Source: Bdellovibrionota bacterium (GTDB lineage: Bacteria; Bdellovibrionota; Bdellovibrionia; Bdellovibrionales; JAEYZS01). Taken from it: 32,171 bases of DNA. Location of the stretch: positions 1-32,171 of the forward strand of contig CAUJEF010000079.1 in the NCBI GenBank assembly GCA_963169515.1. Direction: 5' to 3'. A program made the translations under genes and the position numbers. Within the stretch, counting starts at the first letter, position 1; each line of letters begins with the position of its first letter. A model generated the notes under the pieces. It had not been told where the DNA came from. It ran no database searches and saw nothing but the letters and a program-made list of their open reading frames with translations. Below are positions 2,315 through 23,073 of this stretch, one piece after another.

Positions 2315-2319
2315 GGCCT

Positions 2320-2348: not shown

Positions 2349-2411
2349 GTTGGCGGATTAAACCCAAAAGCTCTTTTCCGCCACTTATCCGCCATCCGCC
2401 AAGTTGGCGGA
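2321..2411. repeat. Operator-like repeats over the Fic promoter
   Basis: The motif CCGCCACTTAT(C/T)CGCC occurs at 2325-2340 (as CCGCCACTTATTCGCC) and at 2378-2393. The related AAGTTGGCGGA occurs at 2347-2357 and 2401-2411. The last copy completes the perfect inverted repeat TCCGCCAAGTTGGCGGA (2395-2411). The layout of a palindrome plus tandem half-sites over a promoter is that of a repressor operator. From memory, similar GGCGGATAAGTGGCGGA arrays occur before other Fic genes; this was not checked. Confidence 0.65.
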
Positions 2412-2418
2412 AAGCCAG

Positions 2419-2454
2419 GTCTAGTTCAGCTAAGTATCAGAAATCTCGATAAGT
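2419..2454 (+). promoter_or_regulatory. Two-block promoter-like element, copy 2
   Basis: GTCTAGTTCAG (2419-2429) and TCTCGATAAGT (2444-2454) are separated by 14 nt, exactly as in the copy at 449-484. If it acts as a promoter it would read rightward into the 3' end of copA and give an antisense RNA. If it is not a promoter, the two same-orientation copies bracket the HNH and Fic genes and could mark the edges of an inserted module. Confidence 0.35.
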
Positions 2455-2470
2455 TATGGCACTCAGTGTG

Positions 2471-5309: not shown

Positions 5310-5312
5310 GGT

Positions 5313-5855: not shown

Positions 5856-5864
5856 TCATACCCT

Positions 5865-5895
5865 CTAATACGAGTTTGCACCCCAAATTGTGACA
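5865..5895 (-). promoter_or_regulatory. ECF-type promoter of the sigma/anti-sigma/copA operon
   Basis: On the minus strand, TGTCACAA (5888-5895) and CGTATTAG (5865-5872) are separated by 15 bp. The same pair of octamers with the same spacing faces the other way at 5960-5990. A -35/-10 pair shared by divergent operons next to an ECF factor is strong circumstantial evidence for its recognition site. The expected start lies only a few nt before the ATG at 5855, so the leader is very short. Confidence 0.8.
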
Positions 5896-5959
5896 GAGCA
5901 AAATCAGAAAGTCAAAAATTCTAGTCTTTTCAAATAGATAAAAATAATAAAAAATAGAC

Positions 5960-5990
5960 TGTCACAAATCGTTAGCCATTTTCGTATTAG
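5960..5990 (+). promoter_or_regulatory. ECF-type promoter of the cus-like efflux operon
   Basis: TGTCACAA (5960-5967), 15 bp, CGTATTAG (5983-5990). Both octamers are identical to those of the leftward promoter at 5865-5895, and the spacers are unrelated. The expected start falls at about 5996-5998, on top of the first candidate start codon of the outer-membrane gene, so the transcript is leaderless or starts translation at the ATG at 6002. Confidence 0.8.
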
Positions 5991-5995
5991 GTGGT

Positions 5996-7189: not shown

Positions 7190-7210
7190 CTGAAAAAAAA
7201 GGGTTAGAAG

Positions 7211-8056
7211 ATGAAGAAACTAATTTGGATTGCTCCAATAATCATAATTTTAGGCCTGTGGGCTTCACACATGTTCACCAAAAAATCCGACGTTAGAACT
7301 AAGGCGGCGGTGAGCCAAGCCGATTCGAGTTCCTATTGGACCTGTCCGATGCATCCACAGGTTCACATGGATCACCCAGGCGAATGTCCCATTTGTCATA
7401 TGAATTTAGTACAAGTGAAAAAACAAATTCAAGAAGAACACAATGTAACAGTAACTGACGGAGCCACAGTGCAGGGGACATCACAACAGTTGGAACTTGC
7501 CGGTATTCAAAAAGCACAGGTAGAAAAAATGTCTTTGTTTGCAAAGATTCCGGTGGCGGGCAGATTTGTATCTTCCAATTTCGTGGCCTTTCAGGTTTAC
7601 GAAAGCGATCTCCGTTATGTTAAGCCGGGTGTCACGTTTAAGGGGGAAAGTAGCGCAATGTCGGATGAAGAAATCAGTGGCGTTGTAACTTCTGTTGATT
7701 CAATCATAGATCCCACAAGTCGCACCGTGCGTGCGATTGGCCAAGTCAAAAAAGGCCCACACGGGATCATTGCAGAAACGAGTTTCAGTGGTGTGATAGA
7801 ACTAGAGCTTAAAGATAAAATTGCTATTCCAGAAAGCTCTGTTCTTCATAGTGGCCAGGGCGATATAGTGTATTTATTTGGCAAAGACAATATGCTCACG
7901 GCAAAGGTTGTGAAACTTGGGGCAAAGGCCGAAGGGTTTTATGAGGTCATCAGTGGCTTACAGCTGGGCGATATTATTAGTTCAGGTCCTAACTTTTTAA
8001 TTGATTCAGAGGCAAAAATTCGCGGAGTTACAGGAAATGATAAACGCCATCATTGA
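7211..8056 (+). CDS. cusB: CusB-like periplasmic adaptor, short form lacking the helical hairpin
   Basis: This encodes 281 residues, against roughly 400 for CusB. An N-terminal membrane anchor (about 3-20) is followed by a heavy-metal-binding domain (about 43-70: YWTCPMHPQVHMDHPGECPI, then CHMNL), the same type as in the copA product here. The sequence then passes from the membrane-proximal strand AGIQKAQVEK to the beta-barrel region (VAFQVYESDLRYVKPG) with very little between. The biotinyl/lipoyl half-motifs and the coiled-coil hairpin that normally contact TolC seem to be missing. The C-terminal membrane-proximal domain is present (VISGLQLGDIISSGPNFLID). The reading frame is open, so this is a compact protein and not a frameshift. 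The cusA gene overlaps its end by 20 nt. Confidence 0.85.
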   Translation: MKKLIWIAPIIIILGLWASHMFTKKSDVRTKAAVSQADSSSYWTCPMHPQVHMDHPGECPICHMNLVQVKKQIQEEHNVTVTDGATVQGTSQQLELAGIQKAQVEKMSLFAKIPVAGRFVSSNFVAFQVYESDLRYVKPGVTFKGESSAMSDEEISGVVTSVDSIIDPTSRTVRAIGQVKKGPHGIIAETSFSGVIELELKDKIAIPESSVLHSGQGDIVYLFGKDNMLTAKVVKLGAKAEGFYEVISGLQLGDIISSGPNFLIDSEAKIRGVTGNDKRHH

Positions 8057-11000
8057 TTTTTCGGCAAGAAATCGCTTTTTGGTTCTGTCTGTTACGGCGG
8101 TTTTTGTATTACTGGGGTTTTATTCTTTAAAAAAAATTCCGCTGGACGCGATTCCTGATTTATCCGATACACAAGTCATTATCTATTCAAGATGGGATCG
8201 TTCGCCTGACATTATGGAAAACCAAGTAACCTATCCCATCGCTTCGTCAATGTTGGGTTCGGCGAAGGTTAAAGCCGTTCGCGGATTTTCAGATTATGGG
8301 TTTTCATATGTTTACGTTATTTTTGAAGATGGGGTTGATCTCTACTGGGCACGAAGCCGTGTTTTGGAAAGTTTGAATAGAATCACATCATCAATTCCCC
8401 AAGGGGTTAAAACTGAAATCGGACCTGATGCTACAAGCGTGGGTTGGGTGTATCAATATGCGCTTCGGGACGAATCGGGAAAGTTTAACCCTTCCGATCT
8501 GAGGTCTATGCAGGATTGGCTTATTCGTTTTCAGTTGCAGTCGGTTCAAGGCGTTGCCGAAGTCGCCCCCGTTGGTGGGTTTGTAAAACAATATCAAGTT
8601 AGAGTTGATCCAACGAAGTTAGCGCTTTTCCAAGTGACTATGGGTGAAGTCATGAATGCTGTTCGCAATTCAAATCAAGAAAGCGGCGGCAGGACCATCG
8701 AATTTTCTGGTGCGGAGGCTATGGTAAGAAGCCGAGGTCTGGTTGATAAAACAGAAGACATTGAAAATGCTGTTGTTGCCTATAATCCACGCAGTCGCGC
8801 TCCAATTATATTAAAGCAGGTGGCTACTGTTTCTGTAGGGCCTGAAATGAGACGCGGCATCACGGATTTCAACGGCCTCGGTGATACCGTTGGAGGTATC
8901 GTTGTCATGAGGCAGGGAGAAAATGTTCCTGTCGTTATCGAAAGAGTAAAAGAGAAACTTGCAGAGATTCAGAAATCTCTTCCAGAAGGTGTTAAAATTA
9001 TTTCGGTTTATGACCGCTCTGAAATTATTGATCGTGCAATGGAAACTCTAAGATCTGCCTTGGTCGAAGAGCTTATAATTGTAAGCCTCATTATTTTGCT
9101 TTTTTTATGGCATATTCCTTCGGCACTTGTGCCAATTGCCACCATACCTATTTCTGTTCTTATAGCGTTTATTCCGCTCTATTTAATGGGGCAGACATCG
9201 AATATCATGTCACTTTCTGGAATTGCCATTTCCATTGGGGTACTTGTTGACGGCGCGATCGTCGAAGTCGAAAATGCTTATCGAAAAATTCAACATTGGG
9301 ACGAGGGTGGACGGAAGGAAAGTTTTTTCGATGTTCGTCTTGAGGCACTGAAAGAGGTTGGCCCTTCGGTTTTCTTTTCACTGCTTGTGATCTCAGTTTC
9401 GTTTATTCCGATTTTCACATTAATAGATCAAGAAGGCCGCCTTTTTAAACCACTTGCTTTGTCAAAAAACCTCACTATGGCTATTGCGGCAATTCTCGCT
9501 GTCACCCTTGATCCTGCAATGCGTATGCTTTTTGCAAGAGCTGACAATTTTAAAACAAAGAATAATTGGTTAAATAAGATTGGTAACGCAACACTTGTTG
9601 GCACCTATTATTCTGAATTTAAACATCCGATCAGCAAGCGTCTTTTTAAAATTTATGAGCCCGTTATTAATTGGGTTTTGGAACACAAAAAGAAAACTTT
9701 AGGATTTGCCTTGGCCTGCATGCTTTCGGTTATTCCTGGGTTTATGTTGTTGGGGTCAGAATTTATGCCGACTCTGCATGAAGGAAGTCTTCTTTATATG
9801 CCAACAGCGCTCCCCGGGATTTCTGTTAGCGAGGCACAAAAATTACTTACCAAGCAGGATGAAATCATAAAATCGTTTCCTGAAGTAGAGTCCGTTTTCG
9901 GAAAGGCGGGGCGCGCAGACACGTCGACAGACACGGCGCCACTAAGTATGTTTGAAACGACTATTGTTTTGAAACCAAAAGCCGAGTGGCGTAAACATAT
10001 TCGCAGCGAAGAACAACTTATCGATGAGATGAATGAAAAATTGAGCTTTATTGGGATGCCCAATATATGGACCATGCCGATTAAAAACCGTATCGATATG
10101 CTTTCAACAGGTATTCGCAGCCCCATCGGTATAAAAATTTTTGGTCCCGACCTTAAGACAATACAATCCATCGGTGAAAATATAGAAAAAGAACTTAAAG
10201 CACTGCCGGCCACGCGAACAGTCGTAGCTGAGCGTATCGCGAGCGGTTATTTTTTGGATATCGATTTTGATCGTGAAAAACTAAAGGTGTACGGGCTTTC
10301 TTTGAAAGAGGCTCAAGATCAAGCCATGATTGCGATTGGTGGAGAAAATGTTTCGCAAATTTTGGCGGGGCGTGAACGTTATCCGATTCAAGTGCGTTTG
10401 GCTCCTGCTTTTAGGCAAGATTCGAAAAATATAAAAAGAATTTTGATAACAAGTCCTACGGGAGCTCAAATCCCTTTGTCTGAAATAGCAAAGGTTCGCT
10501 ACAAAGACGGACCTTCCATGATTCGTAATGAAAATGCCTCTCTTGTTGGCTATGTCTATGTCGATATTGATATGAATCAAACCGATATTGGCACTTATGT
10601 TAAAAGTGCCCAAAATCTGTTAAGTAAAAACATTCAAATTCCCAAAGGTTACCTTATCAATTGGAGCGGGCAGTTTGAAAATATGGAACGTGTGAAAGAA
10701 CGATTAAAAACCGTTATACCAATTACGCTTATTCTTATTATTTTTCTTCTTTATTTCAATACAAAGTCTTGGGTAAAAACGGGTATCGTGCTGTTAGCGG
10801 TTCCATTTTCATTGATTGGTGCCGTCTGGCTTCTTGTGTTTTTGGGATATAATCTTTCGATAGCGGCTTGGGTGGGCATGATAGCGCTTTTGGGCCTGGA
10901 TGCCGAGACCGGTGTTTTTATGTTGATGTATCTTGATTTGGCTTTTAACGATCGCGTTAAAAAAGGACAAATGAATTCCAGCTTGGATTTAAAAGCTGCA

Positions 11001-11216
11001 GTAATAGAAGGCGCTGTCCATAGGATACGGCCTAAACTTATGACAGTGGCGGCGTTGTTCATGGGTTTAATTCCGATTATGTGGTCTATTGGCACCGGAT
11101 CAGACGTAATGAAACGAATCGCAGCCCCAATGATGGGCGGATTGTTTACGTCATTTGCCTTGGAACTTTTGATTTATCCTGTTGTTTATTATGCATGGAA
11201 AGAGCGCACCCTATGA
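8037..11216 (+). CDS. cusA: Heavy-metal RND efflux pump, CusA/CzcA family
   Basis: This encodes 1059 residues from the ATG at 8037, which has AGGA nearby; a longer frame from 8001 lies fully inside the adaptor gene. The first helix (RFLVLSVTAVFVLLGFYSLK) is followed by a typical RND periplasmic loop (PLDAIPDLSDTQVIIYSRW). Charged residues lie in the central helix segment GVLVDGAIVEVENAYRK, where proton relay occurs in this family. The second half repeats the plan, with NIWTMPIKNRIDMLSTGIRS, a Met-containing segment near the porter-domain metal route in CusA. The length is normal. It probably exports Cu(I)/Ag(I), given copA and nirK on either side; a divalent-metal Czc role is less likely. Confidence 0.95.
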   Translation: MINAIIDFSARNRFLVLSVTAVFVLLGFYSLKKIPLDAIPDLSDTQVIIYSRWDRSPDIMENQVTYPIASSMLGSAKVKAVRGFSDYGFSYVYVIFEDGVDLYWARSRVLESLNRITSSIPQGVKTEIGPDATSVGWVYQYALRDESGKFNPSDLRSMQDWLIRFQLQSVQGVAEVAPVGGFVKQYQVRVDPTKLALFQVTMGEVMNAVRNSNQESGGRTIEFSGAEAMVRSRGLVDKTEDIENAVVAYNPRSRAPIILKQVATVSVGPEMRRGITDFNGLGDTVGGIVVMRQGENVPVVIERVKEKLAEIQKSLPEGVKIISVYDRSEIIDRAMETLRSALVEELIIVSLIILLFLWHIPSALVPIATIPISVLIAFIPLYLMGQTSNIMSLSGIAISIGVLVDGAIVEVENAYRKIQHWDEGGRKESFFDVRLEALKEVGPSVFFSLLVISVSFIPIFTLIDQEGRLFKPLALSKNLTMAIAAILAVTLDPAMRMLFARADNFKTKNNWLNKIGNATLVGTYYSEFKHPISKRLFKIYEPVINWVLEHKKKTLGFALACMLSVIPGFMLLGSEFMPTLHEGSLLYMPTALPGISVSEAQKLLTKQDEIIKSFPEVESVFGKAGRADTSTDTAPLSMFETTIVLKPKAEWRKHIRSEEQLIDEMNEKLSFIGMPNIWTMPIKNRIDMLSTGIRSPIGIKIFGPDLKTIQSIGENIEKELKALPATRTVVAERIASGYFLDIDFDREKLKVYGLSLKEAQDQAMIAIGGENVSQILAGRERYPIQVRLAPAFRQDSKNIKRILITSPTGAQIPLSEIAKVRYKDGPSMIRNENASLVGYVYVDIDMNQTDIGTYVKSAQNLLSKNIQIPKGYLINWSGQFENMERVKERLKTVIPITLILIIFLLYFNTKSWVKTGIVLLAVPFSLIGAVWLLVFLGYNLSIAAWVGMIALLGLDAETGVFMLMYLDLAFNDRVKKGQMNSSLDLKAAVIEGAVHRIRPKLMTVAALFMGLIPIMWSIGTGSDVMKRIAAPMMGGLFTSFALELLIYPVVYYAWKERTL

Positions 11217-11318: not shown

Positions 11319-11337
11319 AATATTGGAAAGGCATCTT

Positions 11338-12756
11338 ATGAGATTACATCTAGCAACTCTACTACTGATTCCAGTTCTTTTTGGATGTTGGAAAAAAAAC
11401 GGGGCGAAGCTTGAAGACCCCGAAAAGCTGGCAAAAGTAACGGCTCAACTGACCTATGCCCCTGAGGTTCCAGCACCGCTGAATCGTGGCCCATCAAGGG
11501 TCACAGTAAATCTGGAAACTAAAGAGGTGATAAAGCGTTTGGCCGATGGGGTCGACTATACATTTTGGACATTTGGCGGGAGTGTGCCGGGACCATTTAT
11601 TCGGATTCGTGTGGGCGATTATGTTGACTTCACGTTAAGCAATCATCCGAATAGTAAAATGCCTCACAATATCGATCTCCACGCTGTGACCGGGCAAGGC
11701 GGCGGAGCTGAAGGCTCGTTCACTGCTCCCGGACATAGCTCGACATTTTCGTTTCGTGCTTTGAATTCGGGCTTGTACATTTATCATTGTGCAACTGCGC
11801 CCGTGGGTATGCATATCGCTAACGGTATGTATGGGTTGATTCTGGTTGAGCCAGAAGAAGGCTTGCCCAAAGTAGATCGTGAATTTTATGTCGTACAAAG
11901 CGAATTTTATACCAAAGGGAAATATGGCGAGCGTGGTTTGCAACCGTTCGACATGGAAAAGGCAATTGCTGAAAATCCAGATTACGTCGTATTTAACGGT
12001 TCCGTCGGAGCTGTTGCAAACGGTAATTCTATGGAAGCAAAAGTCGGCGAAAAGGTCCGCATATTCGTTGGAAATGGAGGGCCGAATTTAGTGTCTTCAT
12101 TTCACGTAATTGGTGAAATTTTTGACCATGTATATGGCGAGGGTGGGGCCGTTGTTTCGCAGAAAAATGTTCAAACAACATTGGTGCCTGCGGGTGGTTC
12201 AGCCATTGTCGATTTTGTTGTTGATAACCCATCGACACTGATTTTAGTCGATCACTCAATATTCCGTGCCTTCAACAAAGGCGCACTTGGTATGTTAAAG
12301 GTTCCGGGCGAGGTTAACAAGATGATCTATACTGGAAAAACGGTAGATTCTGTTTACTTAGCAGAGGGTGGTGCAATCCAAACCATGCCGGATGAAAAAG
12401 CGGCTCCAGCGTTTGCAGCAAAAGATTTTTCTGAACGCTTGAAAGCGGGAGAAGCTGCATACAAAGCAAACTGTGCAGCTTGCCATCAACCTAATGGTGA
12501 AGGTATTGCGAGCGTATTTCCCCCACTTGCAAAATCAGACTTCTTAATGGCAAATAAGAACCGCACGATTGATATCGTGATTAAAGGACTTGAGGGCGAA
12601 ATCACGGTTAATGGTCAAAAGTATAATAGTGTAATGCCTTCGTTGGGGCTATCGGACGAGACAATCGCTAACGCACTCACTTATGTACGCAACAGTTGGG
12701 GAAACAAGGGAGACGAAGTCACGCCTGAGCAGGTTAAGGCGCGCAGAGGTAAATAA
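11338..12756 (+). CDS. nirK: Copper nitrite reductase with fused C-terminal cytochrome c, lipoprotein
   Basis: This encodes 472 residues from the ATG at 11338 (GGAAAGG upstream), preferred over a TTG at 11323. The signal peptide ends in a lipobox (LFGC, C17), so the enzyme is lipid-anchored and periplasmic. Two cupredoxin domains follow. Type 1 copper ligands are H110, C151, H159 and M164. Type 2 ligands are H115, H150 and H306. The catalytic pair is D113 and H256. The pattern matches two-domain NirK, which reduces nitrite to nitric oxide. Residues from about 365 form a c-type cytochrome (CAACH at 379-383, late MPSLG as probable axial Met), giving a built-in electron donor. It leads a tight operon with nirV and sco. 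Confidence 0.95.
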
Positions 12757-13505
12757 TGTTTTTTTGGGGGACGTTGCTCCTCATTCTAAACTCGGCACTG
12801 GCTCAATCGCCATCTGAAGTTTTGATTAAGAAAGGAACATACGTTCCTTTCTTTCGAGATTTAAATGAAAGTGATCAAGAGCTAGGACCGCTGGTTGTCG
12901 ATAAATATCCTGTTACCAACAAAGATTTCTTGGCATTTGTGAAAAAAAATCCGTCATGGAAAAAATCGCAAGTCAAAGCGTTATTTGCAAATAATAGATA
13001 TTTGGAACACTGGAAAGACGATTTGTCAGTTTCAGCAGATATACGTGATTTGCCGATAACAAATGTTTCTTGGTTTGCTGCGCGCGCCTACTGTCGCAGT
13101 AAGGGAAAGAGACTTTTAAAAACGAGTGAATGGGAATACGTTTCCGATGCTCAAAATAAGCAAAATCTTGATTTGATTCTAAACTGGTATGGCAAAACGG
13201 GGACAAAGTTAAAACCTGTCAGTGAGGCCGTTGAGAACATTTACGGTATCGTAGGAATGCATGGGTTGATTTGGGAATGGGTTGATGACTTTGGATCTGC
13301 GATTCTGTCGAATGATTCGCGTAAATCCAATGAATCAAGTAAATCGTTATACTGCGGTAGCGGTTCTCTAAAGGCAAAGGACCCTAGTCAGTACGCAACA
13401 TTTATGCGCTTTGCCCACAGGAGCAGTCTGCGCGCAGATTCCGTTGGAAGAACCCTGGGGTTTAGATGTGCTAAAGATCTTATCACAGATAAGGGAGATT
13501 TATGA
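12756..13505 (+). CDS. nirV: NirV-like protein, formylglycine-generating-enzyme (SUMF1) fold
   Basis: This encodes 249 residues. Its ATG overlaps the nirK stop by 1 nt (TAATG). Residues 1-16 are a signal peptide ending in ALA. The rest has hallmarks of the FGE-sulfatase fold: VDKYPVTNKDFLAFV, LPITNVSWFAARAYCRSKGK, LLKTSEWEYV, GMHGLIWEWVDDF and GRTLGFRCA. Family members beside nirK are called NirV; their exact role in nitrite reductase maturation or activity is not established. The cysteines needed for formylglycine formation are not obviously present as a pair (C108 and two near the C-terminus), so a structural or assembly role is more likely than sulfatase activation. Confidence 0.85.
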   Translation: MFFWGTLLLILNSALAQSPSEVLIKKGTYVPFFRDLNESDQELGPLVVDKYPVTNKDFLAFVKKNPSWKKSQVKALFANNRYLEHWKDDLSVSADIRDLPITNVSWFAARAYCRSKGKRLLKTSEWEYVSDAQNKQNLDLILNWYGKTGTKLKPVSEAVENIYGIVGMHGLIWEWVDDFGSAILSNDSRKSNESSKSLYCGSGSLKAKDPSQYATFMRFAHRSSLRADSVGRTLGFRCAKDLITDKGDL

Positions 13506-14092
13506 GAACACTGATAATTAGTTTTAGTTTTTTCTGGTTAGCAGGGATATCAATTGCGAGCGAAAGCTGCCATGAGGATACGAAATCGACAAAGCAAGCG
13601 CTTCCAGGGGATTCGCTTTATAACCTTTCATCGGAATGGATGAATCAAAAGGGGCAAACTGTAAATATCGCAAGTTTGCAAGGCCAATATCGTTTTATCG
13701 TTATGGCATACACGAAATGTCAAACGGCTTGCCCTCTTATGGTAAAAACCATTCAGCAGGTGCGATCTAATTTGCCAAAAAATAAAAACAAGCAGCTAAG
13801 GGTTGACGTTTTTTCATTCGAATCCGAAGCTGAAAATAAAGAATCCTTGGCCGGGTTTGTGCAAAAATATAAATTGGACGACACATGGTCTGTGTATAAA
13901 GCCGATGCTGGCAGCGTCGCAGAGCTTGCGGCAGCCCTTGGGGTTCAGTACAAGAGGATGTCATCTGGTGAATATATTCACTCAAATTTACTGTTCGTAT
14001 TAAACGATAAAGGCCAAATTATCGCTAAGCACGAGGGCCTTTCCAAACCGGGCAAGGATTTTCTCGCCCAGGTCAGCAAAGCTATACCCTGA
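13502..14092 (+). CDS. SCO1/SenC-family copper chaperone
   Basis: This encodes 196 residues with a signal peptide (about 1-20). Its ATG overlaps the nirV stop (ATGA). The thioredoxin-like SCO core has the copper-binding CxxxC (C73 and C77 in TKCQTACPL) and the distal histidine H160 (GEYIHSNLLFVLNDKG), the three ligands known for Sco proteins. SCO proteins deliver copper or reduce cysteines for CuA sites in cytochrome oxidase or N2O reductase. Here the operon position suggests loading of the NirK copper sites. An early Cys-His pair (C23-H24) just after the signal peptide might add a metal contact. The gene ends 41 bp from the convergent lipoprotein gene. Confidence 0.92.
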   Translation: MRTLIISFSFFWLAGISIASESCHEDTKSTKQALPGDSLYNLSSEWMNQKGQTVNIASLQGQYRFIVMAYTKCQTACPLMVKTIQQVRSNLPKNKNKQLRVDVFSFESEAENKESLAGFVQKYKLDDTWSVYKADAGSVAELAAALGVQYKRMSSGEYIHSNLLFVLNDKGQIIAKHEGLSKPGKDFLAQVSKAIP

Positions 14093-14104: not shown

Positions 14105-14138
14105 TTGCGCATTGCACATCAAAAAGGTACGGCCTACC
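14105..14138 (+). repeat. 34-bp direct repeat, copy 1
   Basis: This is identical over 34 bp to 15676-15709 in the same orientation. The core is AAAAAGGTACGGCCTACC, whose end has GGTA/TACC inverted arms around CGGCC. The pair brackets the lipoprotein gene at 14134-15534. This copy supplies that gene's TAG stop codon (14134-14136). Confidence 0.95.
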
Positions 14139-15534
14139 TAGGACATGGAATAAACGCTTTCGAGAATATGACTTGGTCAAATCGATGGGAATATGCCGAA
14201 TTTGTTTGGCCGTTTTGGTAAATCGCCAAAAGCAAAGTGTTCCATCCGTTTCGTGCAACAGCCCCAGAGGTGTTTCCTGATCCATCAAAGTAAGCAGGAT
14301 AAATAACATCCCAAATTTTGACATATTTTGTATCACCTTCGTGTGCTGCCCAGACTTCAAATCTTGTGTCGGCAACGCCATTGTGGCCTGGGGTGACGTG
14401 ATAGAGAAGCGTGTCCCAGCCAAAGGAATAGGACCAACATCCGCCAACATTATTGTTGCTTGGGTCGCAAACTCCGGGGAGCTCAGATCCAAGTTGAATT
14501 CCTGGTTCGTTTGAATTTACAGCGACGTCTGCAAGGGGAGCATAGTTGTAGCCTTGGTAAACAGAGTGAAAGTTTGGAACACCCACACCGCCGGGACGTT
14601 GAAAAAAGGCGGAGTAGGTCACAAGCTCCTGGGCCGTGTAAGAATTATTTGTTGTTGAAAGCCATACAAGTTTGCCGACCTGTGTGTTTCCGACGGTTGT
14701 TCTAACTGGATCAGCTTTTACTCGAACTTGTAAATAAAAATCTGTTCCATCAAAAAAGGAGTTTTGGTAATCAGCGTGGCCATACCAACCGGGCTTAGCA
14801 GTTGATCCCCAGTTATAGAGTTGTCCACCGCCATCTGTTGCAACAAAGTTTTGTGGAGTGAGAGTGCCACTCGCGCCTGGGTCATCGACGCCACGTCCAT
14901 TACCAGCACCAACAATTGGACTGAATGGGCGGTTCCAGTAGGTTCCATCTCCTGATGATCCGGCGGGACGATCAATTTGAAGAAAGCCCCCACCATCTGC
15001 GCCACCAGAAGAAACCCAGTGGGTGTTGGCCGCGTAGGCGCTACCAATGGCTCTTGGGTCGTTTCCGCCTCTGTATCCGCCGGTCCAGCGGAATGCGTTC
15101 ACTTCGGCTGCTGAATCGAAATTGTGGTACCAAACTACGCTGGGGCCACTAACTCGCTCGTTCCAATCGCCCGTTGAACCAGGAGGTGGTGTTGGCACAG
15201 GAGTTGGTGTTGGTGGCCGTGGAGTTGCTGTCGGAGGCACAGGGGTCGGTGTTGGTGGTCGTGGGGTTGCTGTCGGAGGCACAGGGGTTGGTGTTGGTGG
15301 TCGTGGTGTTGCTGTCGGGGGCACAGGAGTTGGTGTTGGTGGTCGTGGAGTTGCTGTCGGAGGTACAGGGGTCGGTGTGGCAGTGGGAACAACTGTTGGT
15401 GCGGGGGAAGTGCCAGTTGAAGATTGTTGATTAAATCCCTTAATGGATTTGAACCCTTCGCCACAGTTATTGAACAATGCTGTGAGCGATATTATCGTAA
15501 CTACGGTTCCCCATTTTTGTATGACTTGTTTCAT
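14134..15534 (-). CDS. Surface lipoprotein 1: LFNNCG anchor, Pro/Thr repeats, jelly-roll-like domain
   Basis: This encodes 466 residues, with GGGGG shortly upstream of the ATG. The signal segment ends in [18 protein letters not shown]24 is the likely lipidated cysteine although Asn at -1 is not a classic lipobox. A linker of about 80 residues contains four exact-length 14-residue repeats of the form [14 protein letters not shown]. The C-terminal 340 residues ([57 protein letters not shown]) look like a beta-sandwich of the lectin/polysaccharide-lyase kind and resemble the second lipoprotein at 18354. A carbohydrate target on a surface is plausible but unproven. The last residues and the stop come from the 34-bp repeat, so the original 3' end may be lost. 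It is on the opposite strand to its three paralogues. Confidence 0.8.
15203..15370 (-). repeat. Four tandem 42-bp coding repeats (Pro/Thr linker)
   Basis: Four head-to-tail units of exactly 42 bp lie at 15203, 15245, 15287 and 15329, differing only at scattered bases. Each encodes the 14-residue unit [14 protein letters not shown] of lipoprotein 1. The near-identity points to recent expansion by slippage or unequal crossing-over, so repeat number may vary between strains. Confidence 0.9.
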
Positions 15535-15675
15535 TTGTCCCCCTTAAGCCTGTCCCATCTACAAATATATTCACAATTTGTGCCTGAAAACACACCTAAA
15601 ATTACTGGGCTTTCTCAGATTGATACGCTTATGCTTTTGATACTGTTTATATGATCAACAGAGGGGCCATACTTG

Positions 15676-15709
15676 TTGCGCATTGCACATCAAAAAGGTA
15701 CGGCCTACC
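15676..15709 (+). repeat. 34-bp direct repeat, copy 2
   Basis: This is a perfect copy of 14105-14138. It lies 141 bp upstream of the lipoprotein 1 start codon and 49 bp before the ATG at 15759. Bases outside the 34 bp differ between the copies, giving sharp edges. Confidence 0.95.
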
Positions 15710-15758
15710 CTCTAGGGGGCGCACTGCCTCGGCATATTGCTTGCTTTGTACTTGGGGT

Positions 15759-16406
15759 ATGAAGTTTCTTGTTATCGTTTTCATGCTATTGCCAACTCCT
15801 TCATATGCTATTTTTTGCAAGAACATTTTCACTGACGGTCAATTGCATCCGGCATTCGAAAACCATCTTACGCCTGCCAAAAAAGCATTTGAAAAATTGA
15901 TTATGGAACTGCAGACCAGATCACCGAGTCGCCATACGGACCGGATATTCACCGCCATTAACGAGCGTGACTATAAGCTAGCAGCTTTTGTCGGGCCCGC
16001 CGATATTTTTAAATTTTTGTCGGAAGTCGGGGAAAAACCAACTGGCATCAGGAGCCCCATTTTACGATCTGCCGGTCGACTGATGGCGTTCTTGGTCGTT
16101 TGGACCACTGTTTACGAGACAATATTTGGTGGTCACCAGCCGGGCTATTGGTGGTCGGACGCTGCATGGTGGGGTCCAACCTTGATGTTTGTTTTAGGGA
16201 ATTTTGCAAAGGAATGGAAAGAAGATCAATTTATGAATGAAGACGCTTACATTCGTGAAATGAAATCTTATTTAACAGGCGAAAAAATCCTGCCCGAAGA
16301 TCAGCCAATCGTTTACTCGGCGTGGACAAACCAAGGAAGAAATGGTGCCGGCCTCGCGCTTTCAAAGCACAATGGTCTATATTCACTATATGTCATCCAG
16401 TGGTGA
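15759..16406 (+). CDS. Secreted or membrane protein of unknown function
   Basis: This encodes 215 residues from the ATG at 15759, chosen because the protein then opens with a clean signal peptide (MKFLVIVFMLLPTPSYA). The frame is open back to 15651, but that part runs through the 34-bp repeat. There are two hydrophobic stretches in the middle (LMAFLVVWTTVYETIF and WWGPTLMFVLGNFA), separated by a Trp-rich turn (GYWWSDAAWWG). The start lacks a good ribosome binding site. I do not recognise a family. It is in the same direction as the PhoD-like gene, 90 bp upstream of it. Confidence 0.65.
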   Translation: MKFLVIVFMLLPTPSYAIFCKNIFTDGQLHPAFENHLTPAKKAFEKLIMELQTRSPSRHTDRIFTAINERDYKLAAFVGPADIFKFLSEVGEKPTGIRSPILRSAGRLMAFLVVWTTVYETIFGGHQPGYWWSDAAWWGPTLMFVLGNFAKEWKEDQFMNEDAYIREMKSYLTGEKILPEDQPIVYSAWTNQGRNGAGLALSKHNGLYSLYVIQW

Positions 16407-16496
16407 ATCAAATCTAGATCCTACGTTGGTCTACTAGACTCGAATAGTTCTCTCTCCACCCGATAAGGTAGTACCCCTTACGGAAGAGAGGATCTC

Positions 16497-17804
16497 ATGA
16501 ATCGTCGTGATTTTTTAAAAGTTTCTTCAATCTCTGCCTCTGTATTGACACTTGATCTGATGATATTCCAAAAAGCAGAAGCCGCCAGGGACCCGAGGCG
16601 GGACATTAACTATGTCCGTGCGAATGGTTTTAGTATCCTTCAAGGTCTGACCACGGCGACCACTACACAATTGACGGTGGACGTGCCAAAAACAATGACT
16701 GTTCACTATGAGCTACGCGATATCAGCAATGGACGATTGATAGATCCGTTCTATTTCAAGTCGGTTTCACGAGCTAAGCCAACCTATCGTGTGGACAAAC
16801 TAGGCTATACAAACTTGCCATATTTGGGGAAGTTCATTTTCCGAGTTCTCGACGATAAGGGTACAGTTCTTGATGAGCGCTACCTTGGACTCGTAGATCT
16901 AAATAAATTGGATGCACGTATTGCAATCATGTCGTGTATGAATTCCGACAACAAAAACAGAGAGAAAATTTGGCCGCGTGTAGAAGCTGCCAACTGTGAT
17001 ATGCTATTTTTTATTGGCGACCATGTTTACGGCGATCTTATGCTGATCTTCGATAGCCCAGATATGCTTTGGGATAAATATATAGAACACCGTCAACTGT
17101 TGCAGTATTATCACTGGAAAAATTTAAAGCCCGCTGTCGTAATTTGGGATGATCATGATTATGGCGCTAATAATGCCGATGGAACTTACAAGTATAAGAA
17201 TGACTCTCTAGTGACTTACAAAGCGTTCACAGCACAAGAACCTATAGCGCCAGAATTTGAGGACGGTCCAGGCGTGTCGTGTCTGCTGCGCGCATTTGGG
17301 CAAAAATTTATGTTGCTTGATAACCGTTGGTTTCGATATTTGAAATACGACGGGATCACGGGCTTTCTGGGTAAAGAACAAATTCAGTGGGCATTATCAA
17401 AAATGACCTCTGGTAGCGAACCAAATTGGATTATCGAAGGCAGTCAGTTTTTTCAATCGGGGAAAGATTGTTACAGGGCCAAAGCTGCTGCCGAATGTGA
17501 AATCTTTGCAAGAGGTATAGGTAAATTGAATTCGCCATCGATCTTTGCCGCAGGGGATGTGCACTATTCTGAATTTTCGCATGCGCCCAAAGAATGGCTA
17601 GGATACGATACATACGAAATTACAAGCAGCTGCCTGCACTCGCGTTGCCGTAAGAAGTTGCCTAAAAATAACCACAGGATTCTTGGCGCCGTTCAAGAAA
17701 ATTTTACGATAGTAGATCTGCTTCCGTCGAGAAACGATCTTGTGTTTGATTTAAAAAATATTGGAATTAATAAAATAAACTTTGAAAAGTCGATATCAAT
17801 TTAA
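16497..17804 (+). CDS. PhoD-like metallophosphatase, Tat-exported
   Basis: This encodes 435 residues with AGAGAGGA before the ATG. The N-terminus is a Tat signal (NRRDFLKVSS, hydrophobic core, AEA at about 27-29), so the enzyme folds with its metal in the cytoplasm before export. Metallophosphatase motifs in order are MSCMNSDN, FFIGDHVYGD, VIWDDHDYGANN (the PhoD-type HDYG) and FAAGDVHYSEFSH. PhoD-family enzymes are Ca/Fe-dependent alkaline phosphatases or phosphodiesterases acting on phosphate esters or teichoic-acid-like polymers. The protein is a little shorter than typical PhoD. No Pho box was identified. The substrate is unknown. Confidence 0.88.
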   Translation: MNRRDFLKVSSISASVLTLDLMIFQKAEAARDPRRDINYVRANGFSILQGLTTATTTQLTVDVPKTMTVHYELRDISNGRLIDPFYFKSVSRAKPTYRVDKLGYTNLPYLGKFIFRVLDDKGTVLDERYLGLVDLNKLDARIAIMSCMNSDNKNREKIWPRVEAANCDMLFFIGDHVYGDLMLIFDSPDMLWDKYIEHRQLLQYYHWKNLKPAVVIWDDHDYGANNADGTYKYKNDSLVTYKAFTAQEPIAPEFEDGPGVSCLLRAFGQKFMLLDNRWFRYLKYDGITGFLGKEQIQWALSKMTSGSEPNWIIEGSQFFQSGKDCYRAKAAAECEIFARGIGKLNSPSIFAAGDVHYSEFSHAPKEWLGYDTYEITSSCLHSRCRKKLPKNNHRILGAVQENFTIVDLLPSRNDLVFDLKNIGINKINFEKSISI

Positions 17805-17823
17805 TCCGCTAATAGTTGATAGC

Positions 17824-17857
17824 ACAAAGGCAAGGGGAGGATCCGCCTTGCCTTTGT
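17824..17857. terminator. Strong hairpin, probable terminator after the PhoD-like gene
   Basis: A perfect 12-bp stem, ACAAAGGCAAGG (17824-17835) and CCTTGCCTTTGT (17846-17857), has a 10-nt loop and lies 20 bp after the stop codon. The T-content after it is weak (CTTTAG), so termination efficiency is uncertain. It separates two convergent genes and may serve both. Confidence 0.7.
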
Positions 17858-17890
17858 CTTTAGAGTAATTAAGAAATCTTCTCGAGCAAA

Positions 17891-18085
17891 TTATGAGTGC
17901 AATTTGCGGGAAGAAGAGTAAGAAGATTGTGGTTTGCTTCCTTTTTTATGTTTTTTGGATGTTACTTTCGTTTTTTCCGTTTTCACACTTTCCGTTTTTG
18001 TGGGATTTGTCGGGGCTGTAGTTTCAGCCGCAAATGCGCCAACCGCAATTAGGGCCGTGACTAACGCTGTGGTAACTGTTTTCAT
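17891..18085 (-). CDS. Small secreted basic protein, Lys/Thr/Ser-rich
   Basis: This encodes 64 residues from the ATG at 18085, which has GAGG upstream; the frame is open further to 18118. A signal peptide (MKTVTTALVTALIAVGAFAA) is followed by about 44 residues of low complexity rich in Lys, Thr and Ser (TEKTKVTSKKHKKGSKPQSS). It is very basic and probably disordered. Such a protein could bind the envelope, lipopolysaccharide or nucleic acid, but there is no direct evidence. The 268 bp between it and the divergent lipoprotein operon holds a GATATTAAA direct repeat (18153-18161 and 18164-18172) and no clear promoter. Confidence 0.6.
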   Translation of the reverse strand: MKTVTTALVTALIAVGAFAAETTAPTNPTKTESVKTEKTKVTSKKHKKGSKPQSSYSSSRKLHS

Positions 18086-18353
18086 AAGAGCCTCACTTTC
18101 TGTCGCTTTCGCGATCATTACAGCTTTTATTATGGGCTATAAACCTTAAATCGATATTAAATGGATATTAAAAGTAATTAATGCTGCTATGGTTTGTGCC
18201 CATCAACAGTCTAAATAAATGCGTTTTCACAAAAACATCCGACCAACTAACAGACAGTGTAAAAGGGACGTGCGTATCAAATTGAAAAAACATAGAAAAT
18301 TCAATGGGGAAAGTTGGCTTACCTTATGCAAATTATAGTTGGTTGGGGGGCCT

Positions 18354-19556
18354 ATGAAAAGGGAACAACTTGTATATATCACTTTGATACTTGCGCTTAC
18401 GGTATTGTTTAACAACTGCGGCGAAGGGTTCAAATCTATTAAGGGATTTAGCCAGCAGTCTTCTGCTGGCATATCTCCAACACCGCCCCCTGTGCCTCCA
18501 ACGGTAACCCCGGGACCGCCAACACCGACTCCTGTGCCTCCGACAGCAACTCCAAGACCCCCAACGCCGACGAGCACCCCAATTGTGGACCCACCACCAT
18601 CGGATTTTTCGACTCGATGTGCAGATCCTAATGTCATTCGTTGCCATGGTTTTGAGGCGGGAACGCGTTTTAATATTTATCGTGGGGAATATTCTTTAAA
18701 TTATACGCACGATTATATTCCAGGAAACGGTGGCAGGGTTGGAATGCAGTTAGATAATTCAATAAGTGCATCTGGGCTATCTTCATTGCGAGCAGATTAT
18801 GTATCTAACAGCGGATCGGATGTTGCGGGCGCGTTTGTAGTTCGATTCAGTGATGATGGAAGGACCCAGTTGGGATTAAATGAAGAATTTTATGTTCAAT
18901 ATCGCGAACGGTTTAGCCCAGAAGTTCTGCGTGGGTTTAACAGTGATAAATATGCCTATTCAACATGGAAACAATCAATTATCGGCGCGGGCGATGAATT
19001 GACCAATGGGCAACCATCAAAGGTCAGTTGGTCTTGCACAGTTCTGGAGATGGTTCTGCAATCTTATGCTATAAATCGTTCCGATGGCCAGAAAGTATAT
19101 CCAGGATTTTATCATAATTGCGGTTACTATTTTGGAATGGATTATTGGCATCCTCAGGGCAATCAAGTGGCGCTACAACATCAAGGGCCGCCGTATTGCT
19201 TATACCCGAACGATCCGCAAAAAGGTTGTTTTTTATACCAACCCAATGAATGGATGACATTTCAAGTGCACATTAAAATCGGCAGTCGTTGGGCGCGAGA
19301 TAACAATGATCAAGTTCCTGGATCCAGAGTAGAGGTCTGGGCGGCTCGGGAAAAGCAACCGAGTGTAAAAATATATGATTCTAATAATAGTCATCCGACC
19401 GGCTTTCCAATCATAGGCGATGGGGTTGTGAAGTATGGGAAGGTTTGGCTTACTCCGTATACTTCATACAAAAACTCAAGCGAAACCCATGCGCCAGGCT
19501 TTATGTGGTACGATGATTTGATTATTTCTCGCGGTAAAATCGCAGACCCGAAATAA
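18354..19556 (+). CDS. Surface lipoprotein 2: LFNNCG anchor, Pro/Thr linker, jelly-roll-like domain
   Basis: This encodes 400 residues from the ATG at 18354, with GGGGGG just upstream. The signal segment ends in [17 protein letters not shown], nearly identical in protein and DNA to lipoprotein 1. A shorter Pro/Thr linker follows (two units of the [13 protein letters not shown] kind). The C-terminal part (CHGFEAGTRFNIYRG, FYVQYRERFSPEVL, NEWMTFQVHIKIGSRW, RVEVWAAREK, FMWYDDLIISR) has the strand pattern of polysaccharide-lyase or lectin-like jelly rolls. Many Tyr, Trp and Asn residues fit carbohydrate contact. It is first in a three-gene operon with lipoproteins 3 and 4, with a gap of only 2 nt before the next. 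Confidence 0.82.
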   Translation: MKREQLVYITLILALTVLFNNCGEGFKSIKGFSQQSSAGISPTPPPVPPTVTPGPPTPTPVPPTATPRPPTPTSTPIVDPPPSDFSTRCADPNVIRCHGFEAGTRFNIYRGEYSLNYTHDYIPGNGGRVGMQLDNSISASGLSSLRADYVSNSGSDVAGAFVVRFSDDGRTQLGLNEEFYVQYRERFSPEVLRGFNSDKYAYSTWKQSIIGAGDELTNGQPSKVSWSCTVLEMVLQSYAINRSDGQKVYPGFYHNCGYYFGMDYWHPQGNQVALQHQGPPYCLYPNDPQKGCFLYQPNEWMTFQVHIKIGSRWARDNNDQVPGSRVEVWAAREKQPSVKIYDSNNSHPTGFPIIGDGVVKYGKVWLTPYTSYKNSSETHAPGFMWYDDLIISRGKIADPK

Positions 19557-19558
19557 TT

Positions 19559-20857
19559 ATGAGCCTCAAGAAATATACAGGAAGGCAGATTACAAATGCG
19601 ATTGCTGTTACAGCACTTGTACTGCTGTTTAATAACTGTGGTAAGGGATTCCAGGCTGTGAAGTTTGATGATCAGGGCTCGGCAGGGTTGTCGACTCCAT
19701 CGCCGATACTATCTCCGTTGCCAATACCGACTCCATCACCGACCCCACGTCCGAGTTCAACTCCGCGCCTTCCAACGCCAACTCCTGTTCCTCCAACGGA
19801 AACCCCACGACCACCAACACCAACCCCAGGGCCGTCCCCAACATCAGGAAATTCAATTGAACAATTGGCAGCTAAAATGCTTGTTGGTCAATGGGCGGAA
19901 CTTACAAATATGGCGGGATGGGATAATGGCAGTATTTTGGTTCCATATGAATTCGGTTGCAACCCGAGTGACTATATTACCCAGTATTCTGAAAAAGCGG
20001 CATGGGATCCAATTTCAAAAAGAATGTTGTTCATTGGACAGAGCCACGGATCCTGCTACGGTGGACTCTTTGTCATTTATTCAGCGGATACCAATTCATG
20101 GTCAAAAGCTCAGTATCCACCTGTTCCTTGTCAGAGTGGAACGAGTACAAATCCTTGCTTTTCGCACGGTTACTCGCATAGCACAGTCGATCCAAATACG
20201 GGTGCATATTATTATCGACACTATGGCTCTCTTGACGTGTACAAATTCTATAATGGTGCATGGAGTATGTTGCCTAAAATCCCTGCGGAAAGCTCAACGT
20301 GTTGTGGGGCTATTGAATTTTTCCCAGATATGAAACGTCTTGTTTTTATGGACGCAGATTGGGGGGTATGGGCTTACGATCCAGTCACAAACAAATGGGT
20401 GCAGCTTGCAAATACAAGTGTCGACGCCGTTCCAGGCTTGCCGCGTGTGCCGATAGCACAGTCAAGCGGATCGCTCTTTGCCCGGTATAATCCGGTAAAA
20501 AAAGAGATGTTGTTGGGTGGTGGCGATAAGCTCGTCGCGCTGAATATGAATGGAGCATTCGCGGCGGGAGCAAACCCAATGGGAATTCGGCTGGGTGCCT
20601 CTGTTGCGGTCGTAGACGTTGATCCCATCAGTGGGAAATATCTGGTCCTATCTCAAGATCGACCGAATATGTACGAATACGACAGTGGCAATGACGCGTG
20701 GACAACTCTTGGGACTGCCGTTCCATCGAGCTTGCGTGCGCTCACGGGCTACGGTGATGGGCTCATCTCTGCGACGCTCACAAATTATGGTGTAAATATG
20801 TATACGAAATATAATTACACTGGGTCTAAGGTTTATCTCTATAAACATAGTAAGTAG
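19559..20857 (+). CDS. Surface lipoprotein 3: LFNNCG anchor, Pro/Thr linker, beta-propeller-like domain
   Basis: This encodes 432 residues. The signal segment ends in LVLLFNNCGKGFQAVKF, the same anchor as its neighbours. The Pro/Thr linker runs to about residue 98. The C-terminal part shows repeated blocks of a kelch-like kind, in which a value is read out and compared with a pattern such as AAWDPISKRMLFIGQSHG, FVIYSADTNSWSK, GVWAYDPVTNKWVQL, ARYNPVKKEMLLGGGD and MYEYDSGNDAWTTL. Several paired cysteines (ESSTCCG and others) fit an oxidising environment outside the cytoplasm. The fold is inferred from the pattern and the target is unknown. It shares its C-terminal type with lipoprotein 4. Confidence 0.82.
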   Translation: MSLKKYTGRQITNAIAVTALVLLFNNCGKGFQAVKFDDQGSAGLSTPSPILSPLPIPTPSPTPRPSSTPRLPTPTPVPPTETPRPPTPTPGPSPTSGNSIEQLAAKMLVGQWAELTNMAGWDNGSILVPYEFGCNPSDYITQYSEKAAWDPISKRMLFIGQSHGSCYGGLFVIYSADTNSWSKAQYPPVPCQSGTSTNPCFSHGYSHSTVDPNTGAYYYRHYGSLDVYKFYNGAWSMLPKIPAESSTCCGAIEFFPDMKRLVFMDADWGVWAYDPVTNKWVQLANTSVDAVPGLPRVPIAQSSGSLFARYNPVKKEMLLGGGDKLVALNMNGAFAAGANPMGIRLGASVAVVDVDPISGKYLVLSQDRPNMYEYDSGNDAWTTLGTAVPSSLRALTGYGDGLISATLTNYGVNMYTKYNYTGSKVYLYKHSK

Positions 20858-20868
20858 TGATTAGGAAT

Positions 20869-22062
20869 ATGGCTACAAAAACGAAAATATTGCAATTTGG
20901 AATCGTAGGCGCGTTGGTTCTTCTTTTCAATAATTGTGGTCAGGAATTTAAGTCGATCCATTTTCAAGACTTGGGTTCTGGCGTTCAATCGACGGCAACA
21001 CCATCTCCAACCCCAACCCCAACCCCTGTGCCAAGTACTCCTCGCCCAACTCCTTCTATAACACCGATTCCGCCTTCTCCAGTCCCTGGGGAAACTCTCG
21101 GGGAAATAGCATCCAAAATGGCGGGTGGAACTTGGGCGAAGATCCCAAATCCACGGAATATGGTGGACGTTTTTGCTCACGGTGGACATACTGGTAACCT
21201 TCTCCCTTATGCAATGAACGGGGTTTGGGATCCAATTTCAAAGCGCTTCCATTTTTTAGGTGGCGATCACGGGGAACCGAGTTCTCGTCATGTTTATTAT
21301 GATGAACCTAGTAATTCGTGGGTTGATCTGGGCTTCACCGGGTTTGGTGGGGTTCATGGATATAATCATCTTGCAATCGATACAGCAAATCGGCAAATGT
21401 ATTTCAATCCTTACGGATATATGGATAACGGAACATATGTACATCGTTATTCATTGGTAACTCAAGGGCCATGGGTATCGCTGGGACAGTACCCAGCAAC
21501 CGGTTATGTCAACGTCACTCATGGGGTAAGTTGGTTTGATAAAATGGATGGTGCGGGCCCAACTGGTGCGCTTGTTATTTACAATTGTGGTGAACCAAAT
21601 GGTGAGCTTTCTCTGTATGACCCTACAAGTAACAAGTGGTTTGCCAACGTCAAAGGTTTTGGTGGTGAGTCTACATACCATTGCTATATGCATTACAGTA
21701 AAGTGCACAATGTCGCAATTATGGGTGGTGGAAGCAATAGTAAAAAGGTTTGGCGCCTAAATCCAGACAGGTCGGTCACTGCAATAGCAGATCCACCCAT
21801 CGACCTTGGTATACAGGATGGCAACGTGAGCCATGACCCTGTCAGCGGTAATTTTCTTGCAATGGGATATGGGCAACTGTGGGAACTTGATCCTCGAGGT
21901 TCGGGTAAATGGACACAACAAACAGGCCCGCCAGCAGAAGTCGGAAATCCAGGGTCACCAAACTTAAATGGTGTAATCAGCTCGCCGATTTCAAATTACG
22001 GAGTCACGTTGTATGTTACTTGTAGGGCCACCAACTGCAATATGTATATTTACAAACACTAA
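20869..22062 (+). CDS. Surface lipoprotein 4: LFNNCG anchor, Pro/Thr linker, beta-propeller-like domain
   Basis: This encodes 397 residues from the ATG at 20869, which has TAGGA upstream; a GTG at 20857 overlapping the previous stop is less likely. The anchor reads ALVLLFNNCGQEFKSIHF. After a short Pro/Thr linker, the C-terminal part aligns with lipoprotein 3: KMAGGTWAKIPN, LLPYAMNGVWDPISKRFHFL, then HG, then repeated blocks such as YYDEPSNSWVDL, LSLYDPTSNKWF and LWELDPRGSGKWT. This is a tandem duplicate of the propeller type. It ends 8 bp from the convergent pair at 22071-23073, so this is the end of the operon. Confidence 0.82.
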   Translation: MATKTKILQFGIVGALVLLFNNCGQEFKSIHFQDLGSGVQSTATPSPTPTPTPVPSTPRPTPSITPIPPSPVPGETLGEIASKMAGGTWAKIPNPRNMVDVFAHGGHTGNLLPYAMNGVWDPISKRFHFLGGDHGEPSSRHVYYDEPSNSWVDLGFTGFGGVHGYNHLAIDTANRQMYFNPYGYMDNGTYVHRYSLVTQGPWVSLGQYPATGYVNVTHGVSWFDKMDGAGPTGALVIYNCGEPNGELSLYDPTSNKWFANVKGFGGESTYHCYMHYSKVHNVAIMGGGSNSKKVWRLNPDRSVTAIADPPIDLGIQDGNVSHDPVSGNFLAMGYGQLWELDPRGSGKWTQQTGPPAEVGNPGSPNLNGVISSPISNYGVTLYVTCRATNCNMYIYKH

Positions 22063-22070: not shown

Positions 22071-22598
22071 TTAGTCGGAAGCATAAGCTTGTTTTTTTGT
22101 TAGGTAGAATTTGATTGCAGATCGGATAATTTCTGCCTCAGAAGTTTTGTATTTTTCTTTAAGTTGCGCGAGTGTTTTTAAATCATCTAGATTAAAACGA
22201 TAGGTCTTAATGATACTTGGTGTTTTTCCTTTGTGGCCAATTTTGTCTATCCACAGCATATACTTTTCAACCGGGACCCCTCGAAATGGATCTTTTGCCC
22301 GCCCACGACGAATGGCATAAAGAATGTTTTCAAGATCTTCGGGCAGATTCTTTTTCTTAAGAAAATTGGGCTTTTTTAAGATAACTGCAGGAAGGACCTC
22401 TAGCAGGCGAGGCTCTATTTCCGAGGCCCACAGGACGTCATCTACGGTAACCGGTCCATGATAATGTCTGGCGTAGTTACTCCCTATTATTCCTGCGCCA
22501 ACAAATTTACCAATAACTTTTTTGTATCGCAGGTCTTCTTCCTTTTGTTTTAAGCGAGCATACTTTTTCTGTGCCAGTTTGATCAATTCTTCATTCAC
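22071..22598 (-). CDS. Ribbon-helix-helix protein, candidate antitoxin partner
   Basis: This encodes 175 residues. The C-terminal 45 residues (TYRFNLDDLKTLAQLKEKYK, then TSEAEIIRSAIKFYLTKK) look like a ribbon-helix-helix DNA-binding domain, common in antitoxins that repress their own operon. The N-terminal part (VLWASEIEPRLLEVLPAVIL, then AIRRGRAKDPFRGVPVEKYM) is not one I can name. It overlaps the upstream nucleotidyltransferase-like gene by 8 nt, so the two are translationally coupled. Palindromes at 23100-23131 lie before the operon and are the likely binding sites. Its role as antitoxin is inferred from arrangement only. Confidence 0.6.
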   Translation of the reverse strand: MNEELIKLAQKKYARLKQKEEDLRYKKVIGKFVGAGIIGSNYARHYHGPVTVDDVLWASEIEPRLLEVLPAVILKKPNFLKKKNLPEDLENILYAIRRGRAKDPFRGVPVEKYMLWIDKIGHKGKTPSIIKTYRFNLDDLKTLAQLKEKYKTSEAEIIRSAIKFYLTKKQAYASD

Positions 22599-23073
22599 TG
22601 ATAAACCCCTTTAAATCGAGACGATATTTTTTTGCCAGGGCAAGAAACTTCTTTGAAGGTTTTTTTGATAAGTATTCTAAAATGAGCATTTTGTTCTTTG
22701 GAAAGGCTTTTAGCGCTTTCGATAGCAGTACGTATTCAGGTTCTGCAACGAAGCCGTCAACATTATGACCATAAAAAATCTGCTTGTATTTTGTTTCTTT
22801 TGGCATCCAAACCTCGTTTGAATGTGGATCTAAATGCTTATTTTCATAAGAAAGAAGTTCGTCGAACTTCTTTCTTATCCAGTGTACTCCATCTATATAA
22901 GCATCCACGTCGTTGGTTGCATTGAGCTTCAAATCAATATTAGCCTCAAGCAGCGCCGTTTGACCTAATATCTTCACGGTGGCCTTTTTAAGTGTTGCAA
23001 ATCCCTCAATAAGAGCTTCCTGATTATATTTTGAAACCTCTATGTCTAACCTTTTTAGGATTCTTACTATCAC
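22591..23073 (-). CDS. Nucleotidyltransferase-like protein (DUF6036/AbiEii-like), candidate toxin
   Basis: This encodes 160 residues from a GTG at 23073 with no clear ribosome binding site. The segment ILGQTALLEANIDLKLNATN, followed by DVDAYID, resembles the start of minimal nucleotidyltransferases, where a small-residue motif is followed by a D-x-D pair that binds metal (here D-V-D). The rest (YKQIFYGHNVDGFVAEPEYV, LLSKALKAFPKNKMLILEYL) also fits DUF6036-type proteins, in which a later helical part follows. Such proteins occur as toxins with a DNA-binding partner. The match is from memory of the pattern, so the family is uncertain. It is first in a two-gene operon. Confidence 0.55.
   Translation of the reverse strand: MIVRILKRLDIEVSKYNQEALIEGFATLKKATVKILGQTALLEANIDLKLNATNDVDAYIDGVHWIRKKFDELLSYENKHLDPHSNEVWMPKETKYKQIFYGHNVDGFVAEPEYVLLSKALKAFPKNKMLILEYLSKKPSKKFLALAKKYRLDLKGFISE

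Follow-up and report, generated by a model that had tools for sequence, protein, structure and literature searches.

Why do four nearby genes begin with the same export signal and end in unrelated domains? The question is raised by the 32,171-nt window studied here, the whole of contig C79 (CAUJEF010000079.1) of a Bdellovibrionales genome of 2.38 Mb in 173 contigs (GCA_963169515.1), probably a metagenome assembly. An earlier note on this DNA had described the four encoded proteins as lipoproteins with a common anchor, built as a modular kit. Our analysis makes it reasonably probable that this anchor is a clade-specific lipoprotein targeting module, which would form a distinct class across the Bdellovibrionales and probably serve surface display.

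All four open reading frames (ORFs) were confirmed; the gene of protein 1 lies on the minus strand, and those of proteins 2, 3 and 4 follow each other head to tail on the plus strand (Table 1). The ATG starts are preferred over the alternative upstream starts in the ORF lists (TTG at 18339, GTG at 20857). Each protein starts with a basic n-region and 11-14 uncharged residues followed by LFNNCG, in agreement with the basic n-region, the h-region of 10-15 residues and the Cys some 20-30 residues from the start that mark a lipoprotein. LFNNCG continues as EGFK in proteins 1 and 2, KGFQ in protein 3 and QEFK in protein 4, and then passes into a Pro/Thr/Ser linker, which is encoded by 42-bp tandem repeats in the genes of proteins 1 and 2. 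The anchor LFNNCG(E/K/Q)(G/E)F(K/Q) with its Pro/Thr linker, as reported earlier, is found in the sequences of all four ORFs.

The anchor recurs throughout the own genome. A single anchor used as query matched 25 places (E from 4e-29), and a profile of 18 anchors found 20 copies at E < 1e-12, well above anything that chance would give. In a set of 17 anchors, from which two near-duplicates had been removed, F-3, N-1, C+1, G+2 and F+5 (counted from Cys as +1) never varied, and N-2, G+4 and K+6 hardly did. Where the residues were identical, codon identity was 0.455, compared with 0.464 ± 0.024 expected under free codon choice. As the codons are random although the residues hardly vary, we regard the motif as under protein-level selection, with fully drifted silent sites. 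The conservation beyond Cys pointed out in the earlier note was thus confirmed by the codon test, which shows that recent duplication alone does not explain why the anchor is conserved.

One recent exchange nevertheless appears real. Two genes on contig C62 share 94% DNA identity from about -121 to +171, i.e. over the upstream region with the promoter, the anchor and the linker, and their C-terminal domains have no similarity. This pattern points to a recent module swap, and agrees with the proposed modular kit. The pair belongs to three consecutive anchored genes (C62, 11070-16735, minus strand). Other cargo in the own genome, outside the window, comprises more kelch-like propellers, two beta-helix proteins, a glucose/sorbosone-dehydrogenase domain, an Fn3 protein and several proteins without a recognised family.

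The residues before Cys are as unusual as those behind it. The textbook lipobox is [LV][ASTVI][GAS]C (PMC8689077), and all four window proteins have FNN at -3 to -1. Hence, the departure from the consensus covers all three positions: the Asn at -1 that had been noticed before, Asn at -2 and Phe at -3. We compared lipoproteins in a census of sampled stretches of order genomes, from which the sample of one genome (G058) was removed as biased, its contig having been picked from a profile match. None of the eight strict [FY][NQ]N class members fitted the textbook lipobox, as against 37 of 75 other lipoproteins. Asn at -1 was linked to an aromatic residue at -3 (8/12 vs 7/75, p = 4e-5), and Phe at +5 or +6 occurred in 5/8 of the class but only 4/75 of the ordinary lipoproteins (p = 2e-4). 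Judged by these sequences, [FY][NQ]N|C constitutes a lipoprotein class distinct from the ordinary lipoboxes of the same genomes. Four consecutive lipoprotein genes on contig C105 (2356-8448, minus strand) have [FY][NQ]N|C lipoboxes without GxGF, and three of them show weak matches to bacterial TSP3 repeats.

The distribution of the anchor follows the order. For this comparison we used a profile of 31 rows and 25 columns, built from [FY][NQ]NCGxGF anchors and looser than the own-genome profile, against 92 Bdellovibrionales genomes and 187 genomes from other classes of the same phylum. It matched 83 of the 92 genomes, at up to 27 places each, so that the genome-wide motif search proposed in the earlier note was answered within the own genome and far beyond it. 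Matches were also obtained in the two sampled genomes that belong to the class but not to the order. In contrast, only five of the 187 outgroup genomes gave a match, one each (E 0.004-0.008), where about 1.9 were expected; this is about chance level. The named relatives that carry the anchor are Bdellovibrionales metagenome assemblies, and a match in Prevotellaceae was dismissed as a chance match inside a protein.

The proteins carried by the two lipoprotein classes differ. Individually scanned members of the [FY][NQ]N|C class contained CBM10, collagen-like, subtilase with Ig, TSP1, PL14, SMP-30, lactonase propeller, FG-GAP, Ig-like, cytochrome and multihaem MtrC/MtrF-like domains. Conversely, ordinary lipoboxes of the order preceded ABC binding proteins, BamD (YfiO), OmpA-type (Pal-like) proteins, an L,D-transpeptidase, a lytic transglycosylase, a SurA-like protein and FlgH. 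With 25 families displayed per list, only cytochrome c families were common to both. By domain content, the class cargo looks extracellular and the ordinary cargo periplasmic. Because the class set was partly gathered by anchor profile and not by domain, this contrast is not circular. Surface display is the location favoured by the cargo type.

The scheme that we consider most likely is the following. The module combines a type II signal peptide carrying the non-canonical lipobox [FY][NQ]N|C with the motif G-x-G-F-(K/Q)-(S/A) in positions +2 to +7 and, behind it, a Pro/Thr/Ser spacer. The preprotein would be exported by Sec, its Cys would be lipidated by Lgt, and an LspA tolerating Phe-Asn-Asn would cut before Cys. 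The lipoprotein would then move to the outer membrane, where a hypothetical export step would read the +2 to +6 motif and place it in the outer leaflet, with the spacer keeping the cargo off the surface. Since the module would be self-contained, cargo could be exchanged freely.

Components suited to such a scheme were sought in the genomes. Nearly all of 30 sampled order genomes encode, besides a short LspA, another one that carries a C-terminal, membrane-type extension of about 170 residues. Within the order this fused form is found almost universally, and copies elsewhere in the phylum diverge more; the Asp residues presumed to be catalytic are conserved in the aligned fused copies, and the extension has no Pfam name. 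That the fused form serves the unusual lipobox is speculation. In the own genome, the fused LspA lies on contig C31 (1714-2685), with an extension that looks HAMP-like by eye, and a third, short copy lies on C165. The secretin GspD of the type II secretion system (T2SS) is present in the own genome and in all 30 order genomes tested. A search for Slam (PF04575) gave no match, but neither did its controls. A bolder version of the scheme, which we hold tentatively and consider rather unlikely as a whole, is that the Bdellovibrionales run a dedicated surface-lipoprotein pathway. Its label [FY][NQ]N|C-G-x-G-F would be read by a specialised LspA, possibly the fused paralogue, and by an outer-membrane translocon, and it would display exchangeable adhesins, enzymes and cytochromes.

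Several points weigh against a targeting module for surface display. The lipidation, the cleavage site, the outer-leaflet location and the reading of the motif are deduced from sequence, and the exporter is a hypothetical component. The census detector was a simple heuristic applied to small numbers, and the domain scan of the class covered a small sample that had largely been gathered by the anchor profile itself. The C62 swap also fits a competing account, in which an ancestral promoter, signal peptide and linker were duplicated onto new cargo as a portable 5' module without sorting meaning. The conserved residues would then be those that the Lgt and LspA of the clade accept, and the proteins would remain in the outer membrane facing the periplasm. 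We regard this as possible but doubtful. Lgt and LspA would indeed touch the lipobox itself, but +4 to +6 are positions outside the usual lipobox, and G+2, G+4, F+5 and K+6 persist although the silent sites have been randomised. Moreover, ordinary lipoboxes occur alongside in the same genomes, and the cargo differs between the classes.

Two further explanations fare worse. In other bacteria, the residues right after Cys decide between the inner and the outer membrane, and the signal might accordingly be a Lol sorting variant that marks the inner membrane or the periplasmic leaflet of the outer membrane. We consider this improbable, as the cargo is of an extracellular type and paralogous cargo on contig C84 and in another genome of the order (G248) has ordinary Sec or twin-arginine translocation (Tat) signals. 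That the proteins are not lipoproteins at all, but have an uncleaved signal anchor or an ordinary signal peptide with a chance Cys, draws on the mismatch at all three textbook lipobox positions (PMC8689077), which also counts against the targeting module; it is highly improbable given a Cys invariant in 17/17 anchors and an uncharged run before it of 11-15 residues, which is signal-peptide length and short for a transmembrane anchor.

Known systems offer partial parallels to the proposed targeting module. The closest principle is the lipoprotein export signal (LES) of Bacteroidota, which reads QKDDE in Capnocytophaga and SDDDD in Bacteroides, or K-(D/E)2 or Q-A-(D/E)2, and is sufficient for surface display (PMC5080379). 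Both are short conserved motifs directly after the lipidated Cys of lipoproteins with varied cargo. However, the LES is acidic, whereas the anchor consensus G-x-G-F-(K/Q), a putative export signal, lacks the acidic pair and is tied to an unusual lipobox before Cys. Within the order, the MIDAS adhesin Bd0875 of Bdellovibrio is reported to be located at the predator surface (PMC11003981). Its family is NCBIfam NF052240, in which the orthologues have the sequence GLYVG|CSPVKF and Phe at +6 is retained by divergent members. Bd0875 thus shares with the anchor an aromatic residue at -3 and a Phe shortly after Cys, and this aromatic residue after Cys may be a common part of the signal. Yet Bd0875 is only a partial match, which again tells against the targeting module: it has Gly at -1, Phe at +6 instead of +5, no FNN, and a vWA domain. 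No vWA/MIDAS (NF052240) domain was matched in the four window proteins by Pfam or NCBIfam.

Surface lipoproteins that depend on the T2SS (pullulanase, SslE, MtrC/OmcA) likewise have varied cargo; the own genome has GspD, and one class member is MtrC/MtrF-like. To our knowledge, these lipoproteins share no post-Cys motif of the anchor kind. The relaxed lipoboxes of spirochaetes tolerate Asn at -1 and Phe at -3. In contrast, [FY][NQ]N forms a discrete class beside ordinary lipoboxes and comes with a conserved post-Cys motif. No NCBIfam model describing the anchor was matched at E up to 1. None of the papers searched contained FNNCG, FQNCG or LFQNC, and literature searches on Bdellovibrio surface lipoproteins returned nothing on such a signal. 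These results suggest that the signal is undescribed, while the principle of surface export by residues after Cys is already known from Bacteroidota.

The cargo of the window falls into two families, as the earlier note had claimed. Its propeller-like domains held up under the structure prediction that it had called for. Protein 3 matches Pfam Kelch_3 and Kelch_1 above the cut-off, its propeller model reached a pLDDT (predicted local distance difference test) of 72.5 and a pTM (predicted template modelling score) of 0.79, and Foldseek matched the model to kelch and other propellers. The corresponding domain of protein 4 is homologous (27% identity, E = 5e-23). We therefore assign both to kelch-type beta-propellers on the basis of the model and its matches, protein 4 by homology. 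They resemble kelch and galactose-oxidase-type propellers in these matches, but are only about 12% identical to solved structures, and no enzyme or ligand can be assigned.

The other family (family J; the C-terminal domains of proteins 1 and 2) had been described as jelly-roll-like, a fold that we can treat only as a guess. Its AlphaFold2 model reached a pLDDT of only 31, and Pfam and PDB sequence searches gave nothing credible (no Pfam match at E up to 10). The two domains are weakly similar (23% identity, E = 0.002), have an EVWAAxE stretch in common, and were aligned together with three homologues. The domain of protein 1 is 46% identical to that of another anchored protein on contig C166 of the own genome; that of protein 2 shares 62% identity with a secreted protein that has an ordinary signal peptide instead of the anchor, encoded in G248, a genome of another family in the order. 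Homologues on viral contigs, sought to deepen the alignments, were not found. Proteins 1 and 2 matched no polysaccharide lyase or lectin family (Pfam, E up to 10). A link of family J to the polysaccharide lyases PF14099/PL14 was rejected: PF14099 was absent from the genome at E up to 10, and there was no similarity to the PL14-type class member. With no catalytic or carbohydrate-binding family recognised in the four proteins, the suggested binding or cutting of polysaccharide is no more than possible.

Family J (query: the gene at 18354) and the propeller family have an identical rare distribution: among about 280-290 genomes of the phylum, both occur only in the own genome and G248. Their genes adjoin both in the window and on contig C84, where a diverged family-J gene (390-1511, minus strand) overlaps a propeller gene (1492-2685, minus strand); the former has an ordinary signal peptide and the latter a Tat-type signal. 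From this common distribution, the adjacency and the varied export signals, we infer that the two domains act jointly, with the anchor as one of several delivery routes for them.

Table 1. Anchored genes of the window and their parts (window coordinates).
Feature	Position	Strand	Basis
Anchored protein 1, 466 aa: signal peptide, 10-residue anchor, long Pro/Thr linker, family-J C-terminal domain	14134..15534	-	
Anchor motif of protein 1 (Cys24), 10 residues	15448..15477	-	reading frame
Tandem repeat, period 42, 4.4 copies, encoding 14-residue linker sequence of protein 1	15185..15378	-	
Family-J C-terminal domain, protein 1	14134..15186	-	sequence comparison
Anchored protein 2, 400 aa: 10-residue anchor, linker, family-J domain	18354..19556	+	
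Anchor motif of protein 2 (Cys22), 10 residues	18405..18434	+	reading frame
Linker repeat of protein 2, period 42	18477..18571	+	
Family-J domain, protein 2	18576..19556	+	sequence comparison
Anchored protein 3, 432 aa: LFNNCGKGFQ anchor, linker, kelch-type propeller	19559..20857	+	
Anchor motif LFNNCGKGFQ of protein 3 (Cys27)	19625..19654	+	reading frame
Kelch-type beta-propeller domain, protein 3	19841..20857	+	Pfam, model, Foldseek
Anchored protein 4, 397 aa: LFNNCGQEFK anchor, linker, propeller homologous to protein 3	20869..22062	+	
Anchor motif LFNNCGQEFK of protein 4 (Cys23)	20923..20952	+	reading frame
Propeller domain, protein 4	21085..22062	+	homology to protein 3

A gene for a PhoD-like phosphatase with a Tat signal-like N-terminus lies between the anchored genes (16497-17804, plus strand). 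Directly after them come two overlapping small genes (22071-23073, minus strand), perhaps a toxin-antitoxin-like pair; one of them weakly matches ribbon-helix-helix proteins. A heavy-metal efflux cluster (2471-11216) encodes a P-type ATPase with YHS and HMBD domains, an outer membrane efflux protein, an HMBD/HlyD adaptor and an AcrB-family pump, and includes a gene for an ECF-type (extracytoplasmic function) sigma factor (5313-5855). It is followed, at 11323-14092, by genes for a multicopper oxidase-cytochrome c fusion, an FGE-sulfatase-type protein and an SCO1-like protein.

Few Gram-negative groups have a known route by which lipoproteins arrive in the outer leaflet. If the targeting module is real, four odd genes of one window become members of a display set of 20 genes, and F+5, GxGF and N-1 provide a defined handle for finding the exporter by mutagenesis. 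Furthermore, an order-specific label would allow candidate surface proteins of the Bdellovibrionales, many of them missed by the strict textbook lipobox, to be listed straight from their genomes.

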